This document shows, one piece after another, positions 1,818-13,432 of a stretch of 34,457 nucleotides of DNA (the stretch's first letter is position 1; every line of letters starts with the position of its first letter). A program made the position numbers and the translations under genes. The notes under the pieces are model-generated. The model was not told the DNA's origin. It worked only from the letters and a program-made list of their open reading frames with translations, and ran no database searches. This stretch comes from Bacteroidaceae bacterium (lineage in GTDB: Bacteria > Bacteroidota > Bacteroidia > Bacteroidales > Bacteroidaceae), in NCBI GenBank assembly GCA_017650045.1, contig JAGCFP010000028.1, positions 1-34,457 on the forward strand, written 5' to 3'.

Positions 1818-4745
1818 CTAATAATACATTTCAATATATTGGTAAGCCTTCTCGAATACATCGTTATCCTTTATCTGGTATTTAATCCAGAGGATAGAGC
1901 GTAGTTTCTTCTTGATTTCTCTTCTTGCAGTAACACTCTGGAAAGCATCATTAAATTGGCGAATGATATTTACCACTTCATTGTCGATGTCATTTACTAC
2001 CTGTTCTACAATGATTGGAGTATCGTCTGACTTGATGCTTTGGAATAGATCTGTCAGCGCAGCCCTTGCTTGCGCACGCTTATCCAAAGGTTTCTCTATC
2101 TCTTTCTCTGCTTCAAGCAGTTCACGAGCCATCTGGAGCAGCTGCTTCAGAAAGTCAATGCTTGAAATCAAACTCTGTTCCATACGTTCACGAAGTTCGT
2201 CAAGCTTTTCTGCAAACTTCTTAAACTTAGGATCACCCTTATGCTCTCCAAGACGTATCTTCAGCATCTTCTCCACTTCCACAATCTTCTTCTGGCGTTT
2301 CTTCTCATCATCCAATACAGAGTTGATGATATCAGCATCTATCACGAGGTCTTCAAGTGGAGTACCTATATCAATGGTATCGATGTTGTTATGGATTATC
2401 TCAATAGTCTTGGCACCCAGCAATGTCCAGATAAGATTTCCACCACTTATAGGACGCACACTCTGGTAAACCTGCGCCAGCCATGTGTAATCATTAGAAT
2501 AAGGCGCCAGGAATTCATTTGGTGAAATAATTTCCCATGCCTTTGCCAATCTTGCGAAGTGACGAGCAAAGTTGGTCTTTACGCCTTCTTCCTTCAGACA
2601 TTGTTGCGCTGCAGTCAGACCTTCCCAACCACCAATGGTACGATCTACGCCAGGGAAGAATTGCAGGCATTCATCCATAAATGTGGGAATGAGCGCTTTT
2701 ATCTCATCCATATTCTTAATGATAGTCTTCACGCTCTCTTCATCGAAGGCAAGACTCTTAGCCACATCTTCAAAAACACCCACAAAGTCAACAATCAGAC
2801 CACACTTCTTGTTTTCGTTGTAAGTACGGTTAGTTCGACAAATGGCCTGAAGCAGTGTATGATTCTTCATAGGTTTATCAAGATACATACACTGAAGAAT
2901 AGGTGCATCAAAGCCTGTCAAGAGTTTACTTGTAACAATCACAAACTACAAGGGTGACAACGGATCTCTGAATTGGTCAAGCAGTTTCCTTTCTTCATCA
3001 CGCGTACGCTTGTAGGCCTTGTATTCATCAGCCTTATCACCAGAAGTATGCATCACCACAGTAGTCTGGTCATCTGTTCCCAGTAAGGCATCCAAGGCTT
3101 TCTTGTATTTCACGCAGCAGTCGCGATTATACACCACCACTTGCGCCTTCATTCCTGTAGGTTCTACATAATCATGGAAATGATTCACGATGTACTTGCA
3201 GACATCGTTGATACGCTTCTCTGCAGTGAAGAACGCTTCTACACTGGTGCGTCTCACAAGTTCTTGTTTATCCTCTTCGCTTATCTGGTCTGTAAGCGCA
3301 TCAAACTCCTCCTGAAGTTTGGCTTCATCAAGATGCATTTCCACTGGCACAGTCTTGAAGTTGAGTTCCAGTGTAGCACCGTCATCTACTGAGTTTTGGA
3401 AGGTATATTTGGAAATGTAGCCAAATTCATCTTCTACGCTGCCAAAGCAGGCGAAGGTGTTATGATCATTGCGATTAATAGGTGTATCTGTTAAACCAAA
3501 GAAGAATGCATTCGGCAGGGCTGTACGCATCTTCTTTCCCAGATCTCCTTCTTGTGTACGGTGAGCCTCGTCCATCAGCAAGATAATGTTGTCGCGATCA
3601 TCAATTACCTCACCATCATTCAGGTCACCAAACTTAAAGATAGTGGTGATAAGAATCTTGCGTTGATGAATTTTGGTTTCTAGTTCTTCCTTAGAAGAAA
3701 TGCCGTCCACATTGGGTATTTCTGCACGTGTGAAATCACCTGTTATCTGGTCTTCCAAATCGATGCGATCGTCCACAATAATCACAGTTGGCGCTTTAAG
3801 TTCGTTTTGTTTGCGTAACTTCTGTGCAGCAAACACCATAAGCCATGACTTACCAGAACCTTGGAAATGCCAGATAAGACCTTTTCTTGGTCCTTTCCCA
3901 GCTTTATAAGTATTAAGCACACGCTGCACGATAGCTTCACCGCCAAGATACTGCTGATAACGACAAACTATCTTTATCTTTCTGCCACCAGTAGTACCAG
4001 TAAATACGGTATAAAAACGATAGATGTCAAGCACTCGCTCTGGAGTCAGCAATGATAGATAGTTGTGCACCACATCGTTGAGTGTTACATGACGGCGCTC
4101 TTCATCAGCAAACCAAGGTCCCCATTTATCTACAGGACAGCCTACACTGGCATATTGCAGTTCACGTCCTTCACTGGCAAATGAAAGAACATTGGGAACA
4201 AACATTTCTGGAATACTCTTCTGATAATGCACGATGTCTGTAGCACCATCTGCCCAGGTGACAGACGACTTGACAGGTGTCTTGGCTTCGCCAATGATCA
4301 TGGGAATACCATTTATGATATAAACCAAGTCCAGACGTTTACCACCTTCTTTACTTCTACGTGGGAATTCCCATTGATTGGTGACTACACAGCGATTTTC
4401 TGATGGCACATCGCTGAAGAAACGAATATTGATGTTCTCTCCATCCTCACCAAAGGGGAAGGAATTCTCATCAAACAGCAAACGGCGGAAACGATCGTTG
4501 GCATCAACCAGTTCTTCGTAATTGTTGCCTATACTACATGCAGCACGAAGATGGTTGACCACTTGTGCTGCTTGGTCTTCGGTAATAGGATTAAGTCGCA
4601 TAAGAGCCGTTACCAGCCATTCTACGACCAGTACTTCGTCAGGCATACGTGGCACATTCTTTGGTTCCACATAGATCCAGCCACATTCTCCTGCAGCGTT
4701 GATGAGCATCTGCTCTACAGTGTTTTCTTCATTAAAGTATGCCAT
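1818..4745 (-). pseudogene. hsdR: Type I restriction subunit HsdR with in-frame amber codon
   Basis: HsdR is the restriction and translocation subunit of type I R-M systems. The first part (4745-2946, 599 aa) has the PD-(D/E)xK nuclease (D139, E153, K155 in LDLVYI and GEAKTP). It also has helicase motif I FQGSGKS (294-300), DEAH (392-395) and FGLTDTPI (about 416). A TAG at 2946-2948 ends it. The same frame continues without a shift to 1818 (374 aa) with motif V TGFDAP, motif [10 protein letters not shown] and the C-terminal helical domain. A sense codon there would read [19 protein letters not shown], which fits the family, so AAG to TAG is the simplest history. Without readthrough, the product keeps the nuclease but loses half the motor. 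A GTG at 2942 could start the second fragment. The reading of 975 codons is certain; whether the gene is dead, suppressed or a sequencing error is open. Confidence 0.9.
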
Positions 4746-4877: not shown

Positions 4878-6317
4878 CTATCCATAATATGGAATATATG
4901 TCATATATTTCTTTGAAGCAGTCTCAATATCTGCGGATTTTATTAACCCAGCCTCTAGTGTATCTGCAATGATTCGAGATGCAATAGAAGAATCATTTTT
5001 AGTCAATTCAAACCTCTCTCTAACAGATTGGTTATTGATGCTATTCCCGTTTTCATACATCAAACAAGCATGCTGATAACAAGCGGAAATCTTCTCTTGT
5101 TTGGTCATCTCTTTAAGACTTTTCTGCGGATACATAAAGACTCTTGTATGTTGTTCACTCTTTGTAAATTTAACAGGTGGAAGATACATCTTTTCGACAG
5201 CAGCAATAGCTCTATCTATACCACTTCCTCTACGTTCACAGATTCCAAGAGTAAACATCATTTGTGCCAGCTGTTCATTTCTTGACTGAGGTGGTAGATC
5301 TATCAAGCGATTGATATCATTCAGAGGTGCACCTGCATTTGTTATCGAAAGCCTATTTGAAAATATCTCAATAGTCACTGGCATACCAGTAATTCCGAAA
5401 TCTTGATGAACTAACGCGTTGGCAACAAACTCTCTAATAGCCACTCTTGGGTAAGTTGGAACAGCTTCCCTTTTAACATCTATCTTTTCGCTACTAGTGT
5501 TACGCATTATGAAATCTATCAATCCCTCGAAACCTACAACATATCCATAGACACCATGTTGTTCGAATTCTTGTTGCAGATTATTCGAACCAACGTATTT
5601 ACGAACTATCACTTCATGCCCAGCCATATTTGGAAAGATCTGGAGATCATTTGCAAAGAGAATAGCCCCCAAATTAGTAATGCTCCAACTCTCTCCTACA
5701 AGTTTACACAGTTGATAATTGGCTAAACGTTCGATAATGGCATCTGTTGATTGTGGAATGTTTTTATCAAGTATATGATAAAGAGCTTTATAATTAAGGT
5801 ATTTGAGCACATCTTCTTTAGTCAGATTCTCTTTGGCTAACTGTTGTTCAAAGGTTATGCCTTGAGATGTGGCTATCAGTGCCTTCACTTGATTCCTAGA
5901 CATCTTTACTGTCTGACCAGCAGAACGATGGTAAGAGGCATAAATGTCTTTCCCTCGCAAATGAATAGGTTTGTCACTTTGTTCTGGAATATAGAAAAAT
6001 AGTAAAGTATGCCCTTCAAAATCCATCACGGCATGTTCTATAGGAATAGAATAAACCAGATTATTCTGAGCAATATTCCCTAACGTTTGTACAGTTTTGT
6101 CTATCTCTTCTTTTGTCATATCAAAGCAGGTTCCATCATTACGCACACCATAAACTAGGATTCCGCCACCTTTCAAATTGGCAAAGGCAGAAAGATGTTG
6201 GGCCAATCGTTCTGTTTTGTCCGACAAACCACTCTTCCAATCCAGTTCGTTTAATTCTGATGGAATAGGATAAAGACTATCATTCAATACCTTTATAGCT
6301 TTTTCTTTCCAATCCAT
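4878..6317 (-). CDS. AlbA_2 / HATPase-like ATP-binding protein of R-M loci
   Basis: The 479-aa protein has an N-terminal AlbA_2 (Schlafen-type) nucleic-acid-binding domain. It begins SELNELDWKSGLS, followed by AFANLKGGGILVYGV and the GKDIYASYHRSAG region at about 120-135. A GHKL-type ATP-binding part follows with AIREFVANALVHQDFG (around residue 295) and EIFSNRLSITNAG. A C-terminal winged-helix-like segment covers about 410-479. Such proteins are often annotated as RecG-like or transcriptional regulators and are common passengers in type I restriction loci; their function there is not settled. It lies between hsdR (132 nt) and the 363-aa gene (93 nt) on the same strand. The gaps and a direct repeat at one side suggest it is a later insertion in the operon. 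Start ATG at 6317 gives the full domain. Confidence 0.8.
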   Translation of the reverse strand: MDWKEKAIKVLNDSLYPIPSELNELDWKSGLSDKTERLAQHLSAFANLKGGGILVYGVRNDGTCFDMTKEEIDKTVQTLGNIAQNNLVYSIPIEHAVMDFEGHTLLFFYIPEQSDKPIHLRGKDIYASYHRSAGQTVKMSRNQVKALIATSQGITFEQQLAKENLTKEDVLKYLNYKALYHILDKNIPQSTDAIIERLANYQLCKLVGESWSITNLGAILFANDLQIFPNMAGHEVIVRKYVGSNNLQQEFEQHGVYGYVVGFEGLIDFIMRNTSSEKIDVKREAVPTYPRVAIREFVANALVHQDFGITGMPVTIEIFSNRLSITNAGAPLNDINRLIDLPPQSRNEQLAQMMFTLGICERRGSGIDRAIAAVEKMYLPPVKFTKSEQHTRVFMYPQKSLKEMTKQEKISACYQHACLMYENGNSINNQSVRERFELTKNDSSIASRIIADTLEAGLIKSADIETASKKYMTYIPYYG

Positions 6318-6410: not shown

Positions 6411-7502
6411 CTAAATTAAATCAGGGAAATTTGGATAACACCTCTTTGCATTTGTTTGAGCTAATGCATAACCAACACTTGTTATTCTAAAGAAAAGAGG
6501 AATCTCTTCAAACCATTCTCTTATCTTCTTAAGTTTTTCATAAGAATCCCATTTCTCCATAAAAGAGGATTGTGCAAGTTTTAATAAATTATCATCTTTT
6601 GAGTAAAGATCGATTATTGGTTTTAATTCCGGTTTCAACTCTCCTTTATTAGAACATCCTATACGTAAATAGCCAGGTAAGCATTCATTCGGAAGTAAAC
6701 AGTTTAATTCATAATGATTCATTTCCAGAATCTCTAAAGCCTTTTTATGTTCTTCTGACCCCTCTTTAATTCCTGCACATGCATAACCATCATAATTACT
6801 TGAGAGTATTATATTAAGCTTGTAAAAATTACCAGATTTAATTCCTACGGCTTTAAGAACATCTAAATGATCTATCCAATTATCTCCTTTTGGTAGCTCT
6901 GTATAAAGCAGCTTAGAGAAAAGCCCATCCATCACTTTAAGACCCTCACTTACACATGGAGCTGTTGGAATAGTCTTAAGTATAGTTGCCACACAAGTCA
7001 ATCCACATAATGAATCATAATCTATTTCATTTACAATCTGAATAGCTTTGTTAATTCCAGCATCTTTTATCATATCACTACCCTTTTCTATATGACAGAC
7101 TAATAACTGGGTAAGCATTTCTAAATCTTCTTGTCGAGAACTTTTTGCAGCAGAGATATTTGCATCTCTAATCATAAATTGAAATTTTGGATCAATAAGA
7201 TTGTTGACTGCATTTTCCATTTTTGTTATAACGGGCACCCATTGTGATTCAAACTTTTCCATTCTGTCTTTACAAATCTCATGGGAGACCTGAGTACACA
7301 GCTTTAAAGCTTGTGCCGTAACTTGTGTAGATACCATAGTAGTAAAAGAAACAACATCGGGTAGGGCAGAAGTAGTGATAGAAACATTGTTTGTTTGGTT
7401 CCCTATTATTGTTTGATTAGAGTTGTCTCCAATCTGCTGATACTGTGATGAATTATCACCAGCTCTTTGTTCCTGATGTGTTTTAGAAATATTCATAATC
7501 AT
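6411..7502 (-). CDS. Unplaced 363-aa protein with N-terminal Q/G/N/S repeat
   Basis: I cannot assign a function. The N-terminus carries a 10-residue repeat QxQxxGxNSx. Q10, Q12, G15, N17 and S18 recur at Q20, Q22, G25, N27 and S28, and a further half unit has Q30. The repeat is followed by a Thr/Asn/Ser-rich linker. Residues 50-363 look globular and mainly helical, with several Cys, and no catalytic motif that I recognise. The overall plan is reminiscent of the LPO_1073/Vpar_1526 family named in public annotation, a weak guess. The start overlaps the stop of the small membrane protein by four bases (ATGA), so the two are probably translationally coupled. It is AT-rich compared with its neighbours. 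The shared motif with the upstream gene suggests that the two proteins contact each other; see the findings. Confidence 0.75.
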   Translation of the reverse strand: MIMNISKTHQEQRAGDNSSQYQQIGDNSNQTIIGNQTNNVSITTSALPDVVSFTTMVSTQVTAQALKLCTQVSHEICKDRMEKFESQWVPVITKMENAVNNLIDPKFQFMIRDANISAAKSSRQEDLEMLTQLLVCHIEKGSDMIKDAGINKAIQIVNEIDYDSLCGLTCVATILKTIPTAPCVSEGLKVMDGLFSKLLYTELPKGDNWIDHLDVLKAVGIKSGNFYKLNIILSSNYDGYACAGIKEGSEEHKKALEILEMNHYELNCLLPNECLPGYLRIGCSNKGELKPELKPIIDLYSKDDNLLKLAQSSFMEKWDSYEKLKKIREWFEEIPLFFRITSVGYALAQTNAKRCYPNFPDLI

Positions 7503-7747
7503 ATCGTTTGCTTCTGTTTGGAGTTTCTTCCTGCTACTTGAGACTGAGAAAAAACGTTTTCATCTTTTGAAGATGTTGAGCGAATAGACTGTTCCTGTTC
7601 TGAATTTGAACCAGATTTCTGCTTCTGTGATATCTTATTCCTAGTTACATACTTGTAAGTTCCTATACAAGATAGGATGAAAATGATAATTGCTATAGCC
7701 CATCCGTCGAATGCTATTTCGGGATTAAAAATGTCAAAACTTTCCAT
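7499..7747 (-). CDS. Small single-pass membrane protein with two Q/G/N/S motifs
   Basis: The 82-aa protein has a short N-terminal part, one transmembrane segment (about 15-31, GWAIAIIIFILSCIGTY) and a polar tail. The tail holds two copies of QxQxxGxNSxQxQxI, at residues 41-55 and 68-82; the second ends exactly at the C-terminus. The same pattern opens the overlapping downstream 363-aa protein. The gene starts three bases after the hsdS stop, so it belongs to the restriction operon. The positively charged residues after the membrane segment (KYVTRNK) predict that the tail is cytoplasmic. No family is recognised. A membrane effector or anchor triggered through the motif is an inference from layout alone. 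Confidence 0.75.
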   Translation of the reverse strand: MESFDIFNPEIAFDGWAIAIIIFILSCIGTYKYVTRNKISQKQKSGSNSEQEQSIRSTSSKDENVFSQSQVAGRNSKQKQTI

Positions 7748-7750
7748 ATT

Positions 7751-8884
7751 TTATAGGTTTTCGTTAATGAGAGATTTTATAACAGCATCTATGGCTTTAA
7801 TGGATTTGCGAAGTTCAAATTCTGATTTATCTGCCTGTTCGGCTTTGGTCACAAACTGCTGCTGTTCCTCTTTGGATGGGATGGGTATCTGTATTTTCCC
7901 AAGATTCGCTCTACTGACGCGAAGTCGTGTAGTTCCGCTAAGAACTTTCTTTATTTGCATTGCATAATCAGGAGTGTTTGTAAATGCTACAAAGAACTTT
8001 GGAAGCACCTTATCATTTAACCTTATGATAGTGCAATCAACAGCTGTGATGGATTTGCCTAATCCAGCAGGAATAATGCAGGCTCGCCCAACTGGGTCTG
8101 GTAATCGAGAGATTAAGATGTCCTCCTCTACCACCTCTGTACAGTTAAGTCGATTAAAGGTTTCTTCGCTTATATATCGAGCCTTATCACCTTTATCTTT
8201 GAATGTACCTACACCAACATTACCCGTTTGAATAAGCCTAATCCCTGAATCAGACTGGTCTTTAGCTTCAATCCAATCTCCGTCAATAAAAGTATCGCAC
8301 AAAGAAGATAATGCGACTCTCTCTGCAGAACTCCCAAACATCTCGATAAATTGCGATTTCACCATTTCTTCAGTGGCAGCAAGAAGCTTCTTGTATGATT
8401 CCTTTAAGCGATATGCTGCCCACACTTTATCAGAAATTTCTTTTTGTTCCTCTGGAGTTGGCAGTTCAAATTCATAATTGGCGATTGATGACCAATTGTT
8501 TGCGAAATTAACACTCCCGACTTTATGGCTTTCACAGTAATCCCAAAAATGATCCGATTGTAACATCACTGCCAAATACTCTTGTGAGAGAACAGTTTCA
8601 TCCTTAGAGCGTAGAATATAACTGGCATCAGAACACAGTCCAGCAAACCGCACCATGCCAGCTTTACGTAGATGAGGATTACGAGCCATAAATACCACAT
8701 CCCTATCTTGAAATGCAAAATGGAATTTAAATCCTAGCTTCCCAAGGTTTTCTTTTAAGAGCCCCTTCTGAGTTACCTCCAATTCATTAGACTCAAAATG
8801 TTCTCCACCGATATAGTATTCCAACTCGGTTGTAAATCTATCGACATTTCCATTTATTCTGTCAACAATATCAGTTAGCTTCAT
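7751..8884 (-). CDS. hsdS: Type I specificity subunit HsdS
   Basis: HsdS chooses the DNA target of the type I methyltransferase and restriction complex. The 377-aa protein has a first target-recognition domain (about 1-145) and a central conserved helix (PTPEEQKEISDKVWAAYRLK, about 141-175). A second recognition domain follows (about 185-335, with SGIRLIQTGNVGVG and LISRLPDPVGRA), then a second conserved helix from PIPSKEEQQQFV to the end. The length is a little short for a two-domain HsdS, and the first domain is compact. It begins one base after the second hsdM stop. No inverted-repeat hsdS fragment or recombinase is seen nearby, so nothing here suggests shuffling of specificity. Confidence 0.9.
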   Translation of the reverse strand: MKLTDIVDRINGNVDRFTTELEYYIGGEHFESNELEVTQKGLLKENLGKLGFKFHFAFQDRDVVFMARNPHLRKAGMVRFAGLCSDASYILRSKDETVLSQEYLAVMLQSDHFWDYCESHKVGSVNFANNWSSIANYEFELPTPEEQKEISDKVWAAYRLKESYKKLLAATEEMVKSQFIEMFGSSAERVALSSLCDTFIDGDWIEAKDQSDSGIRLIQTGNVGVGTFKDKGDKARYISEETFNRLNCTEVVEEDILISRLPDPVGRACIIPAGLGKSITAVDCTIIRLNDKVLPKFFVAFTNTPDYAMQIKKVLSGTTRLRVSRANLGKIQIPIPSKEEQQQFVTKAEQADKSEFELRKSIKAIDAVIKSLINENL

Positions 8885-8885
8885 A

Positions 8886-10412
8886 TTACATAAACATTTG
8901 GGTTAATAATTGGTAAGCCTCATGCATGTCCCTACTACATTCATCAAATTTCTTTAGAGAACTTATTGTATCATATGAGCCTTCATTATTTTTGGAAACA
9001 TATAGGGGAATTGCCAACATATATCCTTTTTGCTTTATTTCTTCAATAGTGGCAACATTGGAGAAACCATCGATGTAATCATACCTCAAATATGCATCAA
9101 GGATCTCTTTTATATGCTCTGGCTCCAAATTACTCTCTGCATTTTTTCGAGTCACCTTGTCTTTGGCATCTACAAATAAAATCTTTCCTTTCCTTCCTGC
9201 CCTTTTATTTTGTTTGCAAATCAAAATACAAGCTTCCATGGGAGAATTATAAAAAAGATTTCTTCCAATACCAATGACACATTCTACTACATCTGATTCT
9301 ACAAGATTTGCTCGAATATCCTTTTCTTCATCTCTTCCCAACACGCCATGTGGCAATAAAATGGCACATCTGCCATTATTCTCACTCATCGAAGAAATAA
9401 TATGCTGTATGAAAGCATAGTCCGCACGTCCTTGCGGTGGCGTTCCAAGGAAATTTCGTCCCCATTTGTCGTTCATAAAAGCGTCACGGTTCCATGTCTT
9501 GATAGAGTAGGGTGGATTCGCCAGCACTACATCAAACTTTCTCAGATGACTACCATCTACAAAAGCAGGATGAGCCAGCGTGTCTTCACGAACAATGCTA
9601 AAGTCTTCAACTCCATTTAGATAAAGGTTCATTCGTGCAATGGAAGCCGTCAAGGCATTGATTTCTTGCCCAAACACCTTTACGCCTTGCCAGGCCTGTC
9701 CCTTTTGGCGCAGGAAGTCAAGACACTTCACAAGCATACCACCAGACCCACAAGTGGGGTCGTAGATGCTTTCGTTAGGTTTTGGTTGAAGAATCTCTGC
9801 CATCAATGTCACTACAGTACGGTTGGTGTAGAACTCCTGTGCTGTATTCCCAGCATCATCTGCAAACTTGCCTACAAGGTATTCGTATGCTTGTCCCATC
9901 TCATCAGCTGGACAAGAATCAAGACTCAAATCATAGCGAGAGAAATCTTCTATCAAAGAAGTGATGATATGATCAGGCATCTTTGCCTTGTTTGTCCATC
10001 CATCTTTGGGGCCGAAGATTCCTGTGAGACCACCGACTATACGCCCATCTCCATCCTCGCCAGGATTGGCTTGCTCAATGGCTATAAATGCCTCTACAAG
10101 CCGTTGCCCTACATTCTCTGTTACTTCACGCACATCTTTCCAGTGGGCACCTTCTGGAATGCGGATAGGCAGTTCTTCAGCTTGCATACCAGCATATTCT
10201 TCGCCCCCTTCGCGAACGAAGCCTTGGTACTGCTCATCAAAGACATCACTGATGCGTTTGAAGAACAGTAGAGGAAAGATGTATTCCTTATAACCAGCAG
10301 CATCTATTTGCCCACGCAGGCGTGTGGCAGCTCCCCATAGGAAAGATTCTAGATCGTCGAGTGAGATCTGACTGCCTGGCATTCGATATGTTTTCTCTGG
10401 ATGTACTTCCAT
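8886..10412 (-). CDS. hsdM: Type I DNA methyltransferase HsdM (second copy)
   Basis: This 508-aa protein is an N6-adenine DNA methyltransferase subunit. The N-terminal helical domain covers about 15-160 (LRGQIDAAGYKEYIFPLLFFKR). The SAM-binding motif is DPTCGSGG (218-225) and the catalytic motif is NPPY (299-302). Between them lies QEFYTNRTVV, where most HsdM proteins have EFYTPR. It is clearly different from the adjacent upstream HsdM in sequence (for example DPTCGSGG and NPPY against DPACGSGG and NPPF). It follows that gene by five bases and precedes hsdS by one, so all three are surely co-transcribed. Both catalytic motifs are intact. Whether it pairs with itself or with the other HsdM cannot be seen. 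Confidence 0.92.
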   Translation of the reverse strand: MEVHPEKTYRMPGSQISLDDLESFLWGAATRLRGQIDAAGYKEYIFPLLFFKRISDVFDEQYQGFVREGGEEYAGMQAEELPIRIPEGAHWKDVREVTENVGQRLVEAFIAIEQANPGEDGDGRIVGGLTGIFGPKDGWTNKAKMPDHIITSLIEDFSRYDLSLDSCPADEMGQAYEYLVGKFADDAGNTAQEFYTNRTVVTLMAEILQPKPNESIYDPTCGSGGMLVKCLDFLRQKGQAWQGVKVFGQEINALTASIARMNLYLNGVEDFSIVREDTLAHPAFVDGSHLRKFDVVLANPPYSIKTWNRDAFMNDKWGRNFLGTPPQGRADYAFIQHIISSMSENNGRCAILLPHGVLGRDEEKDIRANLVESDVVECVIGIGRNLFYNSPMEACILICKQNKRAGRKGKILFVDAKDKVTRKNAESNLEPEHIKEILDAYLRYDYIDGFSNVATIEEIKQKGYMLAIPLYVSKNNEGSYDTISSLKKFDECSRDMHEAYQLLTQMFM

Positions 10413-10417
10413 GCTGA

Positions 10418-11953
10418 TTATGCGTTAATAATACGTCTAAACTCTGCCTCACGGAACTTTACTTCCTCGTAGGCAGCTTTAAATTCTGCTAATACCTCTG
10501 AATAAGGCTTGATAGCCTCACGGTGGTATTGCACATATTTATTTGGCGAAAGGTCGAAATCCTTCGCCTTTATCTCATCGAGAGTAACTACCTGTGAGAA
10601 GTCTTCCACATTCTCGTAGTTGGAATAAAGCTCATAAAGGCGCTCTACATCCTTTTGTTCAAGGATGTTTTGAGCTCGCTTCTGAGTTAAAATCTTAGAG
10701 CCGTCTATCATCAGAATCCGTGCGCTATGTGCTGCTGGTTTTATCTTTCGCAAAATGAGGAAGCATGGAGATATACCTGCACCGTAGAAAAGCTTTTCAC
10801 CAAGAGTGACAACAGCTTCCACCATATCACTCTTCACCAGCTTTTCACGAATGCGTCCTTCTTCATTGCCACGGAAGAGAACTCCCTGTGGCATTACCAC
10901 AGCCATTCTACCTGTACCAGGAGACATAGACGCAATCATGTGCTGAATCCACGCATAGTCGCCGCAAGAGTCGCTGGGAGTTCCCCAAATGTTACGTCCA
11001 TACTTATCTGATGACCATTCCACGGCTCCCCATTTATCAAGTGAAAAGGGTGGATTTGCAATGACACAGTCGAATTTAGCCACCTCTCCACCTTGCAAGA
11101 TTTTGGGATTGCGAAGCGTATCGCCTTGCATAATGATAAAGTCGGATGCACCATGCAGGAATAGATTCATTTTAGCGATGGCAGCATTGGTAACATTCTT
11201 CTCTTGGCCAAAAATAGATCCACAGCAGAGGCTGCTATGATTCATGTGGTGAACTGCCTCTATAAGCATACCACCGCTACCGCATGCTGGATCGTACACG
11301 GTTTCGCCTGGGCGAGGGTCAAGAATTCGGATAAGTAACTGCACTACCGAACGAGGGGTGTAGAATTCTCCAGCCTTAGCTTTTGAGTCATCTGCAAATT
11401 TCTTCAATAGAATCTCATAAGCATCACCCATCAAGTCAGTTGGATAATCTTTATTGCCCAGTTTACGGGTGCTGAGATGCTCTATCAAGTCACGTATCTT
11501 ACCGTCAGATAGGTTTTTCTTATCTGTCCATTTTTGGGAACTGAAGATACTAAGTACGCCATAAAGTGTGTCAGGATTGGCCAACTCAATGCCACGCATG
11601 GCACCCACAATAGCTGCTCCTAAATTCTCAGTGCGCTCACGCACCTCTTGCCAATGGCATCCTTCTGGAATGACAAAACGATGCTGTTCAGGAAGCGAAG
11701 CGTATTCTTCATCGCCACCACTCTCCTCAAGGGCATCTTGTGTCTCTTCATCATATACATCGTTGATGCGCTTATAATAGAGGATAGGCGTTATGTAATC
11801 TTTAAAGTTGTCTTGGCTTACTGGCCCGCGAATGATGTTGCATGCCTCAAAAAGGAAATTGTACAGATTCTGCACACCTTCCAGCTTCAGCTCCTGTGGA
11901 GTCTTAGGAACATTTATTTTATTAGTATCTTTAATTTTCCTATTTTTAGCCAT
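10418..11953 (-). CDS. hsdM: Type I DNA methyltransferase HsdM (first copy)
   Basis: The 511-aa protein is the first gene of the restriction operon. The HsdM N-terminal domain covers about 25-165 and contains IIRGPVSQDNFKDYITPIL. GEFYTPR follows at 195-201, the SAM-binding motif DPACGSGGM is at 221-229, and the catalytic NPPF is at 300-303. All key residues for N6-adenine methylation are present. It is preceded by a Lys-rich start (MAKNRKIKDTNK) not found in the second copy. A -7 box TATATTTG lies at 11992-11999 on the minus strand, about 40 nt upstream of the start. Two full-length, diverged hsdM genes with one hsdS is unusual. It suggests either a heteromeric methyltransferase or fusion of two ancestral loci. 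Confidence 0.92.
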   Translation of the reverse strand: MAKNRKIKDTNKINVPKTPQELKLEGVQNLYNFLFEACNIIRGPVSQDNFKDYITPILYYKRINDVYDEETQDALEESGGDEEYASLPEQHRFVIPEGCHWQEVRERTENLGAAIVGAMRGIELANPDTLYGVLSIFSSQKWTDKKNLSDGKIRDLIEHLSTRKLGNKDYPTDLMGDAYEILLKKFADDSKAKAGEFYTPRSVVQLLIRILDPRPGETVYDPACGSGGMLIEAVHHMNHSSLCCGSIFGQEKNVTNAAIAKMNLFLHGASDFIIMQGDTLRNPKILQGGEVAKFDCVIANPPFSLDKWGAVEWSSDKYGRNIWGTPSDSCGDYAWIQHMIASMSPGTGRMAVVMPQGVLFRGNEEGRIREKLVKSDMVEAVVTLGEKLFYGAGISPCFLILRKIKPAAHSARILMIDGSKILTQKRAQNILEQKDVERLYELYSNYENVEDFSQVVTLDEIKAKDFDLSPNKYVQYHREAIKPYSEVLAEFKAAYEEVKFREAEFRRIINA

Positions 11954-11999: not shown

Positions 12000-12149
12000 A
12001 GAAAAACAAAAATAATATAGGCTGCTTATTTGGTAAAAAAACGAAAAACGACAACAATATATAGTTTTAGTTAACTACAATTATCACTACTATCATCTGT
12101 GGTGGAAAATACACACTATGTTACTATGGTATTTGTGGTAAATAATTAT

Positions 12150-12157
12150 TATCTTTG
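12150..12157 (+). promoter_or_regulatory. -7 box of the AbiH-like gene (TATCTTTG)
   Basis: TATCTTTG is a perfect match to TANNTTTG and lies 40 nt before the ATG at 12198. An upstream TTTG at 12132-12135 is closer (14 nt) than the usual 19. It supports starting the gene at 12198 rather than at 12099, which would be upstream of the promoter. Confidence 0.55.
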
Positions 12158-12197
12158 TAAAGATAATGATAATGGAAAGATAGAAGTAAGAATAGGT

Positions 12198-13432
12198 ATG
12201 AACAGACTTGTTTTAATAGGTAATGGCTTTGATCTGGCCCATGGACTTAAGACCAGCTACCAAGATTTTATAAATTGGTATTGGGAGCAAAAGATTAATG
12301 AATTTAGAACTACGTATGAGAGAACAATAAAAGATACCCTTTGTTCAATCAGTGTGTTGAATGATCCAACATGCTTTTTTTATGCATACAATCATTTTTC
12401 ACCTCTAATCAAATCATATAAAGATTGTCTACAAACCCTTTGTAATGATAAAGACAATATAAGGTTTTCTTATTCTATTTTCTTTGAGAATATTCTAAAA
12501 AGTATTGAAACCAAAAAATGGGTTGATATAGAAAATGAATATTATTCTTTAGTTAAGAAATATTCTATAGATTATTTCTCGGAAAACAACATGAAAACAT
12601 TAAACAAACATTTACATTTTTTGCAGGAAAAATTGATAGAGTATTTGACAACAGTAAACCAGCAAGTTATAAATATAAAGAAAGATATTAATAATAAAAT
12701 TTATGCGCCTATTCATCCTAATGAAGTGTCTATAGAGGGAAAAAAGAACTTGACGACATTGAAAAAAGATGGAAAAAATTGAAGCCAGATGAATTAAATG
12801 ATTTAATGGAGGAATTATTATCCCGTTATAAAATTACTAATTACATGACTAAAAGGGATTATATTGAGGAGGTAAGGGATTATATTAAAGACCCCCTTCA
12901 TTATAAAGATTATCCCCGTCTATTTATGATGCCTGATAATATCATGCTCTTGAATTTCAATTATACCCAAACAGCTGGTTTATATCACAACCCCAATTTC
13001 ATATTGAACTATATTCATGGAAAATTAGAGAATCCAGACAGTGTGATTTTCGGATATGGAGATGAGCTTGACGAAGACTATAAGAAGATACAAAGTCTTA
13101 ATGATAATGAGTATTTGAAGAATGTGAAATCTATCAGATATATGGAGTCAGATAATTATCGTAATGTGCTGAAGTTCATAGAATCAGCACCTTACCAAAT
13201 ATGTATCATGGGGCATTCTTGTGGTAATTCTGATCGTACTTTGCTTAATACATTATTTGAACATAAGAATTGTATTTCCATCAAACCTTACTATCGTGTT
13301 AAGGATGATGGAACTTACAATTATCTTGAACTTGTTCAAAATATCAGCAGGAATTTCACTGATATGAAACTCATGAGGGATAGAGTGGTAAACAAAACAT
13401 ATTGTGAACCGTTAGTTAAGAGGAATGTATAA
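12198..13432 (+). pseudogene. abiH: AbiH-like phage-defence protein, two frames joined at A AAA AAG
   Basis: The start MNRLVLIGNGFDLAHGLKTSY is the hallmark of the AbiH family, whose founder is a lactococcal abortive-infection protein. Frame one runs to a TGA at 12780-12782 (194 aa). Frame two is open from 12725 to 13432 and carries the rest of the family, including NIMLLNFNYTQT, YIHGKLE and ICIMGHSCGNSD. The last residues of frame one (NLTTLKKDGKN) look unnatural, while frame two upstream of its first possible start reads KELDDIEKRWKKLKPDEL. The switch therefore lies at 12740-12746, A AAA AAG. A -1 step there gives a seamless 411-aa protein. This is either a lost A in the run, with a dead gene, or programmed -1 frameshifting. 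No stable downstream stem is obvious, so loss by mutation is at least as likely. The gene is AT-rich. Confidence 0.8.

Follow-up and report, generated by a model that had tools for sequence, protein, structure and literature searches.

A 34,457-nucleotide stretch of Bacteroidaceae DNA (contig JAGCFP010000028.1, from a 2.27-Mb genome that is 76.6% complete; "the window" below means this whole stretch) carries two overlapping genes, which encode a small membrane protein and a 363-residue protein of the LPO_1073/Vpar_1526 family. The ends that face each other, C-terminal in the first and N-terminal in the second, carry the same 15-residue motif. This shared-motif pairing is more general than an earlier note on this DNA could see, recurring in distantly related bacteria and often beside antivirus genes. 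We put at roughly 50% the probability that the pair is an abortive-infection unit of two genes without an NLR, its LPO_1073 sensor or adaptor being linked through the motif to a membrane effector, probably by amyloid-like stacking. The features of the pair in the window are as follows (L and G labels below are loci and genomes of this analysis).

7499 to 7747, minus strand: small membrane protein, 82 residues, candidate membrane effector or anchor (open reading frame, family alignment)
7661 to 7717, minus strand: predicted transmembrane helix, small-protein residues 11 to 29 (Kyte-Doolittle scan)
7583 to 7627, minus strand: motif copy 1 of the small protein, QKQKSGSNSEQEQSI, residues 41 to 55 (open reading frame translation, motif scan)
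7502 to 7546, minus strand: motif copy 2 of the small protein, QSQVAGRNSKQKQTI, residues 68 to 82, its C-terminus (open reading frame translation, motif profile)
7499 to 7502, minus strand: ATGA overlap of the small-gene stop and the long-gene start
6411 to 7502, minus strand: long partner, 363 residues, LPO_1073/Vpar_1526 family (NF045477, E = 1.1e-22, 81.0 bits against a cutoff of 45)
7431 to 7475, minus strand: N-terminal motif of the long protein, QEQRAGDNSSQYQQI, residues 10 to 24 (motif profile)
7401 to 7445, minus strand: second, overlapping motif register of the long protein, QYQQIGDNSNQTIIG, residues 20 to 34 (profile score, 30.5)
6429 to 7322, minus strand: LPO_1073 domain, long-protein residues 61 to 358 (NF045477 match)

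The motif common to both proteins has a QxQxAGDNSxQxQxG-like consensus. Translation of the reading frames bore out the positions that the earlier note had given for it (residues 41 to 55 and 68 to 82 of the small protein, 10 to 24 of the long one) as well as the ATGA overlap at 7499 to 7502, and 8 of 15 columns (1, 3, 6, 8, 9, 11, 13, and 15) are identical across all three window copies. The 10-residue spacing described for the 363-residue protein (Q10/Q20/Q30, G15/G25, N17/N27, S18/S28) is also confirmed; the shared motif is thus real, but its conserved unit is about 15 residues rather than the 10 first proposed, and the second register in the long protein occurs in the window and L020 alone among 26 loci. 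The pattern Q.Q..G.NS.Q.Q has three matches in the six frames of the window, all in the two pair genes, and 58 in 1.43 million six-frame residues of other loci (loci fetched as relatives, with repeat fetches counted), all of them, judged by sequence, in pair proteins or in three viral proteins. A profile built from the small proteins of 25 other loci, which include the close relative L020, gives the window's long protein its highest score, 31.1, at residue 10; beyond residue 60 the best score is -3.9, and 200 shuffles of the first 60 residues reach at most 16.4. With profiles built in each case from the small proteins of other loci, the long-protein motif exceeds all 200 composition-preserving shuffles in 25 of 26 loci; at L048, 1 of 200 shuffles reaches it.

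We assembled 26 such gene pairs, one of them a near-duplicate, along with one natural fusion; their named sources are Bacteroidota, Bacillota, Lentisphaerota, Patescibacteria, Spirochaetota, Actinomycetota, and Pseudomonadota, to which prophages and viral contigs are added. All 26 pairs are adjacent on one strand and mostly overlapping, with a spacing of -26 to +14 bp that depends on the start codons as chosen here; in all of them the first gene encodes a protein of 57 to 93 residues with the motif at or near its C-terminal end, and the second product begins with the motif. The contig scan (18 loci) and the first viral scan (2 loci) used motif patterns, and members found otherwise were therefore counted apart. 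Whole-protein, hidden Markov model (HMM), or motif-free searches gave 12 members, and motif and partner are present in 11 of the 11 that are readable (G056, G315, G398, its near-duplicate G510, G475, G772, G1443, L063, L064, Escherichia coli L069, and phage record L047), the twelfth, G335 (L018), being cut by a contig end. The whole-protein queries contained the motif; four matches from the genus and family searches began at residues 18 to 21, in the motif tail, and the rest included the motif. Motif-free viral scans also found L038 and L039 again, which were in the query alignments and are left uncounted. Counts given over 25 loci omit L035 (a near-duplicate of L032) and L018, with L035 kept among the 12 Bacteroidota loci and the 11 of 11; the long frames of L031 and L047 are shortened and were used for the motif only. 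Homologues without the motif or the neighbor were what the earlier note named as telling against it, and every relative with a readable start, 26 pairs and the fusion, has both.

The fusion, L063, is a single protein of 442 residues whose N-terminal end is hydrophobic; two motifs follow, the first degenerate (score, 18.6) and the second scoring 24.0, ahead of the LPO_1073 domain. Natural fusions usually mark proteins that act in contact. A small-protein HMM run over 201 genomes returned the pairs of the window and G315, a transmembrane protein from G250 that lacks the Q motif, and a chance match in G286. In a separate observation, a 306-residue protein at L060 (7539 to 8459, minus strand) starts with the same MEYIEWIFSGIG...GYKIGIRN membrane module, has no Q motif, and adjoins an Eco57I/TaqI_C-type methylase gene.

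The motif is the conserved part of these proteins, and the remainder has diverged. In the pattern-seeded set (25 loci, both sides pooled), positions 1, 3, 5, 9, 11, and 13 (Q, Q, A, S, Q, Q) carry 3.3 to 4.2 bits, the turn positions 6 to 8 (G, D, N) carry 2.3 to 3.0 bits, and positions 2, 4, 10, and 12 carry 1.2 to 1.6 bits. Pattern seeding favors the conserved columns, and the count was therefore redone on plain MAFFT alignments, which gave identical conserved columns: 3.2 to 4.1 bits versus 1.5 to 2.7 at variable positions for 21 small proteins, and 3.3 to 4.1 versus 1.3 to 2.0 for 20 long proteins. This alternation fits the pattern expected of two beta-strands joined by a tight G-D-N turn, with one face packed and the other exposed. 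Departures from the core also tend to be matched between the two partners of a locus (p = 0.0006 for inward and turn positions in 22 representatives), with no significant matching at outward positions (p = 0.28). Departures seen on both partners include KSG..S.NIQ in L038, A-V/I-Q replacing Q-x-Q in L069, and QAGRDxN in L048.

Beyond a transmembrane segment and the motif, the small proteins contain little. By a Kyte-Doolittle scan with a threshold of 1.6, the window protein has one predicted transmembrane segment (residues 11 to 29; N-flank charge -3, C-flank +5), and 23 of 26 small proteins pass. The C-flank is more positive than the N-flank in 21 of the 23 small proteins with a scored segment, and the motif is therefore predicted to be cytosolic; the other 2 are two-transmembrane hairpins, whose ends are both expected on one side. 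At least three membrane modules accompany the one motif. One is a W-F-D-G-x-G-T type, frequently accompanied by GxxxG repeats, another is the L038 type, and a third is a two-transmembrane hairpin in L048 and L069; by eye, the start of L063 looks similar to this hairpin.

Neither pair protein of the window has a Pfam match above cutoff. NCBIfam assigns the 363-residue protein to LPO_1073/Vpar_1526 (NF045477, residues 61 to 358), and 15 of 15 records scanned likewise have a match above the cutoff, whereas the window's small protein falls below every NCBIfam cutoff. In relatives aligned from model position 1 the match begins at residues 26 to 29, directly after the motif, and the shared motif therefore lies outside the annotated family. 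This family is uncharacterized, its name consisting of locus tags without function or partner. It is also rare and patchy: with the window protein as query, relatives turned up in 2 of 158 genomes of the genus and 6 of 399 sampled genomes of the family (own genome included), and HMM searches detected it in 2 of the 395 Bacteroidota genomes sampled (the window's included), 1 of 344 genomes in the phylum of G915 (G915 itself), and 2 of 198 genomes from the order to which G923 belongs (G923 among them). Judged by its relatives, the window probably comes from the family of Phocaeicola and Prevotella. By DNA search, most of the E. coli version of the locus is present in 6 of 5426 E. coli genomes. 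A contig scan with a single window protein as query and a plasmid tblastn search with the long proteins of the window, L038, and L034 and one small protein both gave no match. In the PDB, a sequence search with the small protein gave two weak matches (E = 0.035 and 0.14). None of the titles and abstract openings listed by searches of openly licensed PMC papers names the pair, and the family locus tags lead to one proteome table.

Two candidate identities were set aside. Homology to Abi_alpha/DUF4393 (PF14337), suspected from the helix pattern, is not supported (hhalign probability of 0.2% against one member). The PADLOC model PDC-M43A matched the window's small protein weakly (0.0078), which we attribute to chance because the small proteins of three relatives gave 0 matches at E ≤ 1 and only 1 of 101 genomes was matched (at 9.1e-4).

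The window pair sits in an operon with the following further genes.

7751 to 8884, minus strand: hsdS, specificity subunit (Methylase_S, 3.3e-16; Specificity_I, 1.8e-55)
8886 to 10412, minus strand: hsdM, methyltransferase (N6_Mtase, 2.6e-89)
10418 to 11953, minus strand: second hsdM-like methyltransferase (N6_Mtase, 7.6e-94)
4878 to 6317, minus strand: SLFN_AlbA_2 and HATPase_c_4 protein, downstream of the pair (Pfam)
2946 to 4745, minus strand: N-terminal part of hsdR, ending at an in-frame TAG at 2946 to 2948 (Pfam and reading frame)
1818 to 2942, minus strand: C-terminal part of hsdR, in the same frame as the N-terminal part (Pfam and PADLOC)

The type I R-M operon recognized in the earlier note is confirmed as to type, with its hsdR frame broken by the TAG; in the close relative L020, hsdR is whole (989 residues, no interruption). 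A protein of the SLFN_AlbA_2 and HATPase_c_4 type also lies 3' of the pair in L033. Upstream of the window operon, an AbiH gene (12099 to 13432, plus strand) is broken into two frames; at the related locus L013, AbiH occupies a single frame and adjoins that locus's hsdR.

Across 25 loci, defense or restriction genes adjoin the pair in at least 11, a lower bound because PADLOC and Pfam scans covered only part of the neighbors. Type I R-M linkage is seen in the window, L020, L021, L022, L025, and L028, and L023 has an hsdR-like fragment (phmmer, 2.3e-20; no match by Pfam) together with Gabija. BREX genes brxC and brxL are present in L033, where the pair directly follows brxL, DNA methyltransferases in L024 and L030, and Hp1 beside the pair of L069, in the gpA-gpQ hotspot of a P2-like prophage. 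L029, which adjoins an N6_Mtase/HSDR_N_2 protein, is excluded from the 11. One provisional neighbor label, SIR2like, proved to be AbiH by Pfam, and another, PglZ, had no Pfam match at 1e-5. In a further observation, the Treponema pair of L028 is immediately preceded by a gene (6981 to 7790) whose product matches the PADLOC candidate PDC-S60 (1.2e-22).

In five type I loci (window, L020, L021, L022, and L025), hsdS precedes the pair and hsdR follows it, all on one strand; by best match these loci carry two kinds of HsdR. In L020 the hsdS gene is a fusion with hsdM, and in the window and L021 the pair and hsdR are separated by other genes. HsdM occurs within 8 kb of 3 of 12 Bacteroidota loci, against 0.07 expected if loci are treated as independent and HsdM_N occurs 42 times per 116 Mb (sizes rounded), the density measured across 41 genomes from the family of the window. 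Small proteins with two motif copies (window, L020, L021, L022, L025, L028, and L047) are found at 6 of 7 type I-linked loci versus 1 of 18 others, an association noticed after the fact (Fisher p = 0.0003; 0.003 with close relatives collapsed).

The E. coli copies sit between replication endonuclease and portal genes, and their position is constant while the neighbors differ between two arrangements (L069 and L082 versus L081). In L069 (2690 to 5440), Hp1 (PADLOC) and two more uncharacterized genes share the P2 hotspot with the pair, and the other arrangement has different uncharacterized genes there. The pair looks autonomous because its place is kept while these neighbors differ. The statement that it is lodged in a type I operon holds for the window and four further loci (hsdS-hsdR), but this operon is one of several settings, so that the pair again looks autonomous rather than like an R-M component.

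The motif is also found in viral proteins of other kinds. A strict DNA motif pattern matched four stretches of viral sequence, of which one is a pair (L074, the record of L039) and three (L075, at 3887 to 4279, L076, and L077) encode hydrophobic-segment proteins of other kinds. The L075 protein has relatives in 22 Gordonia phage records, and the four aligned keep AGDNSTQ invariant at whole-protein identities down to 42 to 43%. Further loci with motif-bearing viral proteins of other kinds include L078 to L080. Viral RHIM proteins act as decoys in animals; the Gordonia phage and other viral motif proteins may possibly be decoys too, or may use the motif otherwise.

The pair, its linkage, the fusion, the motif with its strand-like conservation, and the defense settings are supported by the data. 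The layout, self-similar motif, fusion, and defense settings fit a sensor or adaptor that recruits a membrane effector by motif stacking, and we propose the following mechanism. The two genes would form one autonomous mobile defense unit. By predicted topology, the small protein would span the inner membrane and expose its motif to the cytosol, and the LPO_1073 partner would be a soluble sensor or adaptor with an N-terminal motif of the same kind. Each motif would fold as a beta-arch, in which a G-D-N turn connects the strands QxQxA and SxQxQ and Gln, Ala, and Ser point inward. On a trigger that is most likely phage attack or inhibition of the neighboring restriction or BREX system, the partner's motifs would come together and act as a template on which the membrane protein's motifs join a mixed stack, which would gather the membrane helices and depolarize or permeabilize the membrane (abortive infection). 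The partners are likely to touch physically through the motif, and an antiphage role is probable. Amyloid-like polymerization we regard as an even bet, and membrane killing could equally go either way. Judged from sequence, the amyloid reading overall is plausible, and there is a real chance that the pair represents a new class. More speculative, and possible rather than probable, is a broader picture of widespread NLR-free signaling amyloids in ordinary unicellular bacteria, in which LPO_1073 sensors would template mini membrane proteins through a shared Q/G/D/N/S beta-arch as a very small abortive-infection alarm, the pair would be slotted between hsdS and hsdR as a restriction guard, and viral proteins would possibly be decoys.

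Several results weigh against this interpretation. For 14 of 25 loci no recognized defense neighbor was counted (neighbors scanned in part), and the window's own hsdR is split by the in-frame TAG. Without L038, L069, and L048 the matching between partners disappears at inward and turn positions (p = 0.32) and is weak over all 15 positions of the remaining 19 loci (p = 0.027 by BLOSUM, 0.11 by identity; 0.0016 in a less reduced locus set). The motif is poor in hydrophobic residues. Four published signaling-motif peptides fail to match the motif profile, and for this reason the pair is not filed as BASS, RHIM, or PP. A PDB sequence search with the long-protein profile returned 0 solved structures at E ≤ 10. 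The small proteins of L021, L033, and L039 score below the transmembrane threshold (1.33, 1.43, and 1.58), and 4 of 26 long proteins have one segment marginally above it (1.65 to 1.67). Finally, Vpar_1526, a homologue, is listed in outer-membrane and surface fractions of Veillonella parvula (PMC5491611, Table 1), and an envelope fraction fits membrane association, not obviously a cytosolic protein.

The same motif could also serve static membrane docking, in which a one-to-one beta sandwich or short solenoid would anchor the LPO_1073 protein, no polymer would form, and the LPO_1073 domain would itself be the effector. Short motifs in one or two copies per protein, small proteins with little beyond a transmembrane segment and the motif, a fusion (L063) with both halves in one chain, and the tendency of partner motifs to match in core positions would all suit such an anchor. 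Gln at alternate positions suits stacked beta-arches, however, and the same kind of motif on both sides is expected for stacking whereas a lock-and-key contact could diverge; the LPO_1073 domain also has no Pfam match above cutoff, and we consider docking rather unlikely. Less probable again is a toxin-antitoxin system, in which the small transmembrane protein would be a membrane toxin that the LPO_1073 protein neutralizes by capping its motif: the genes mostly overlap with the small hydrophobic product first, the distribution is patchy (2 of 395 Bacteroidota genomes; 6 of 5426 E. coli), and many small proteins have a glycine-rich helix, but the putative antitoxin is large (280 to 400 residues), a toxin-antitoxin fusion such as L063 would be unusual, and the hsdS-hsdR placement resembles a guard position.

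A role as an accessory or regulatory part of type I R-M (or BREX), in which the pair would hold the enzyme at the membrane, might be read from the five same-strand hsdS-hsdR loci with their two HsdR types and from the pair's place directly after brxL in L033. This is very unlikely, as 18 of 25 pairs have no recognized type I neighbor (they lie in prophages, viral contigs, the P2 hotspot, and other places) and the motif is kept whatever the neighbor. Gln/Asn/Gly repeats resemble curlin repeats in style, and Vpar_1526 was detected in envelope fractions (PMC5491611, Table 1), but extracellular curli-like fiber or adhesin subunits are highly improbable with a motif predicted by the positive-inside rule to be cytosolic, no curlin among the Pfam results for the window pair, and defense-gene settings. 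A functionless chance or low-complexity linker, to which the polar, Q/N/S-rich composition might point, can be given almost no credence: it is refuted by conservation at fixed positions across seven phyla and at both facing ends, and by the failure of shuffles to reproduce the motif. The unconserved linker that the earlier note had listed as a refuting outcome did not materialize.

A 2021 review of amyloid signaling raised as an open question whether fungi or bacteria have NLR-independent signaling amyloids (PMC7889193), and the pair is a concrete, small candidate for one. If true, our proposal would explain a family that has so far borne only a locus-tag name, give the hsdS-hsdR guard position a second kind of gene, and make phage proteins with the motif possible antagonists. 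Laboratory tests should be simple, because the pair occurs in E. coli prophages as well as in gut Bacteroidales.

Among known systems, the window's long protein is a member of LPO_1073/Vpar_1526 (NF045477), with the motif preceding the family model. The E. coli pair resembles the contents of the P2-like gpA-gpQ defense hotspot (PMC9122126) in lying there, in one arrangement with Hp1; the term LPO is absent from that paper's main text. The gene for PrrC lies between hsdS and hsdR of EcoprrI, the order that the pair shows in five loci. PrrC is likewise an accessory defense gene linked to type I R-M and a possible second line when restriction is inhibited, its guard role at EcoprrI being that of an anticodon nuclease (PMC2610378). 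Unlike PrrC, the pair consists of a membrane protein and a partner with a shared motif, and neither window protein has a Pfam match to ABC-ATPase or anticodon nuclease domains.

The RHIM core is I/V-Q-I/V/L-G. It is absent from the window motif copies, and IQIG is present in L021, L028, and L047. RHIM, fungal PP, and HET-s motifs act in amyloid signaling (PMC7885112), and the proposal for the pair is alike in having a partner seed the effector through a short motif and unlike in sequence pattern. In bacterial amyloid signalosomes, a BASS motif at the C-terminus of a small membrane-type (BELL) protein recurs at the N-terminus of an adjacent NLR product and is predicted to form a beta-arch (PMC7889193 and PMC8086366); these systems occur mainly in filamentous actinobacteria and cyanobacteria, and amyloid motifs are paired with several effector domains (PMC7889193). 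Against that background the pair differs in its partner, an LPO_1073-family protein rather than an NLR; in its candidate effector, a single- or two-transmembrane mini-protein; and in its occurrence in gut bacteria and prophages. No NLR (NACHT/NB-ARC) domain is found by Pfam at E ≤ 1 in the long proteins of the window and four relatives, and one published BASS3 peptide scores -6.3 on the motif profile versus 21.8 for the weakest pair instance. The amyloid-signaling reading of the earlier note consequently falls outside the BASS/NLR definition, but it is partly supported: the pair matches bacterial amyloid signalosomes (PMC7889193) in layout, with a short motif at facing ends, adjacent or overlapping genes, and a predicted beta-arch, and its motif shows strand-like conservation.

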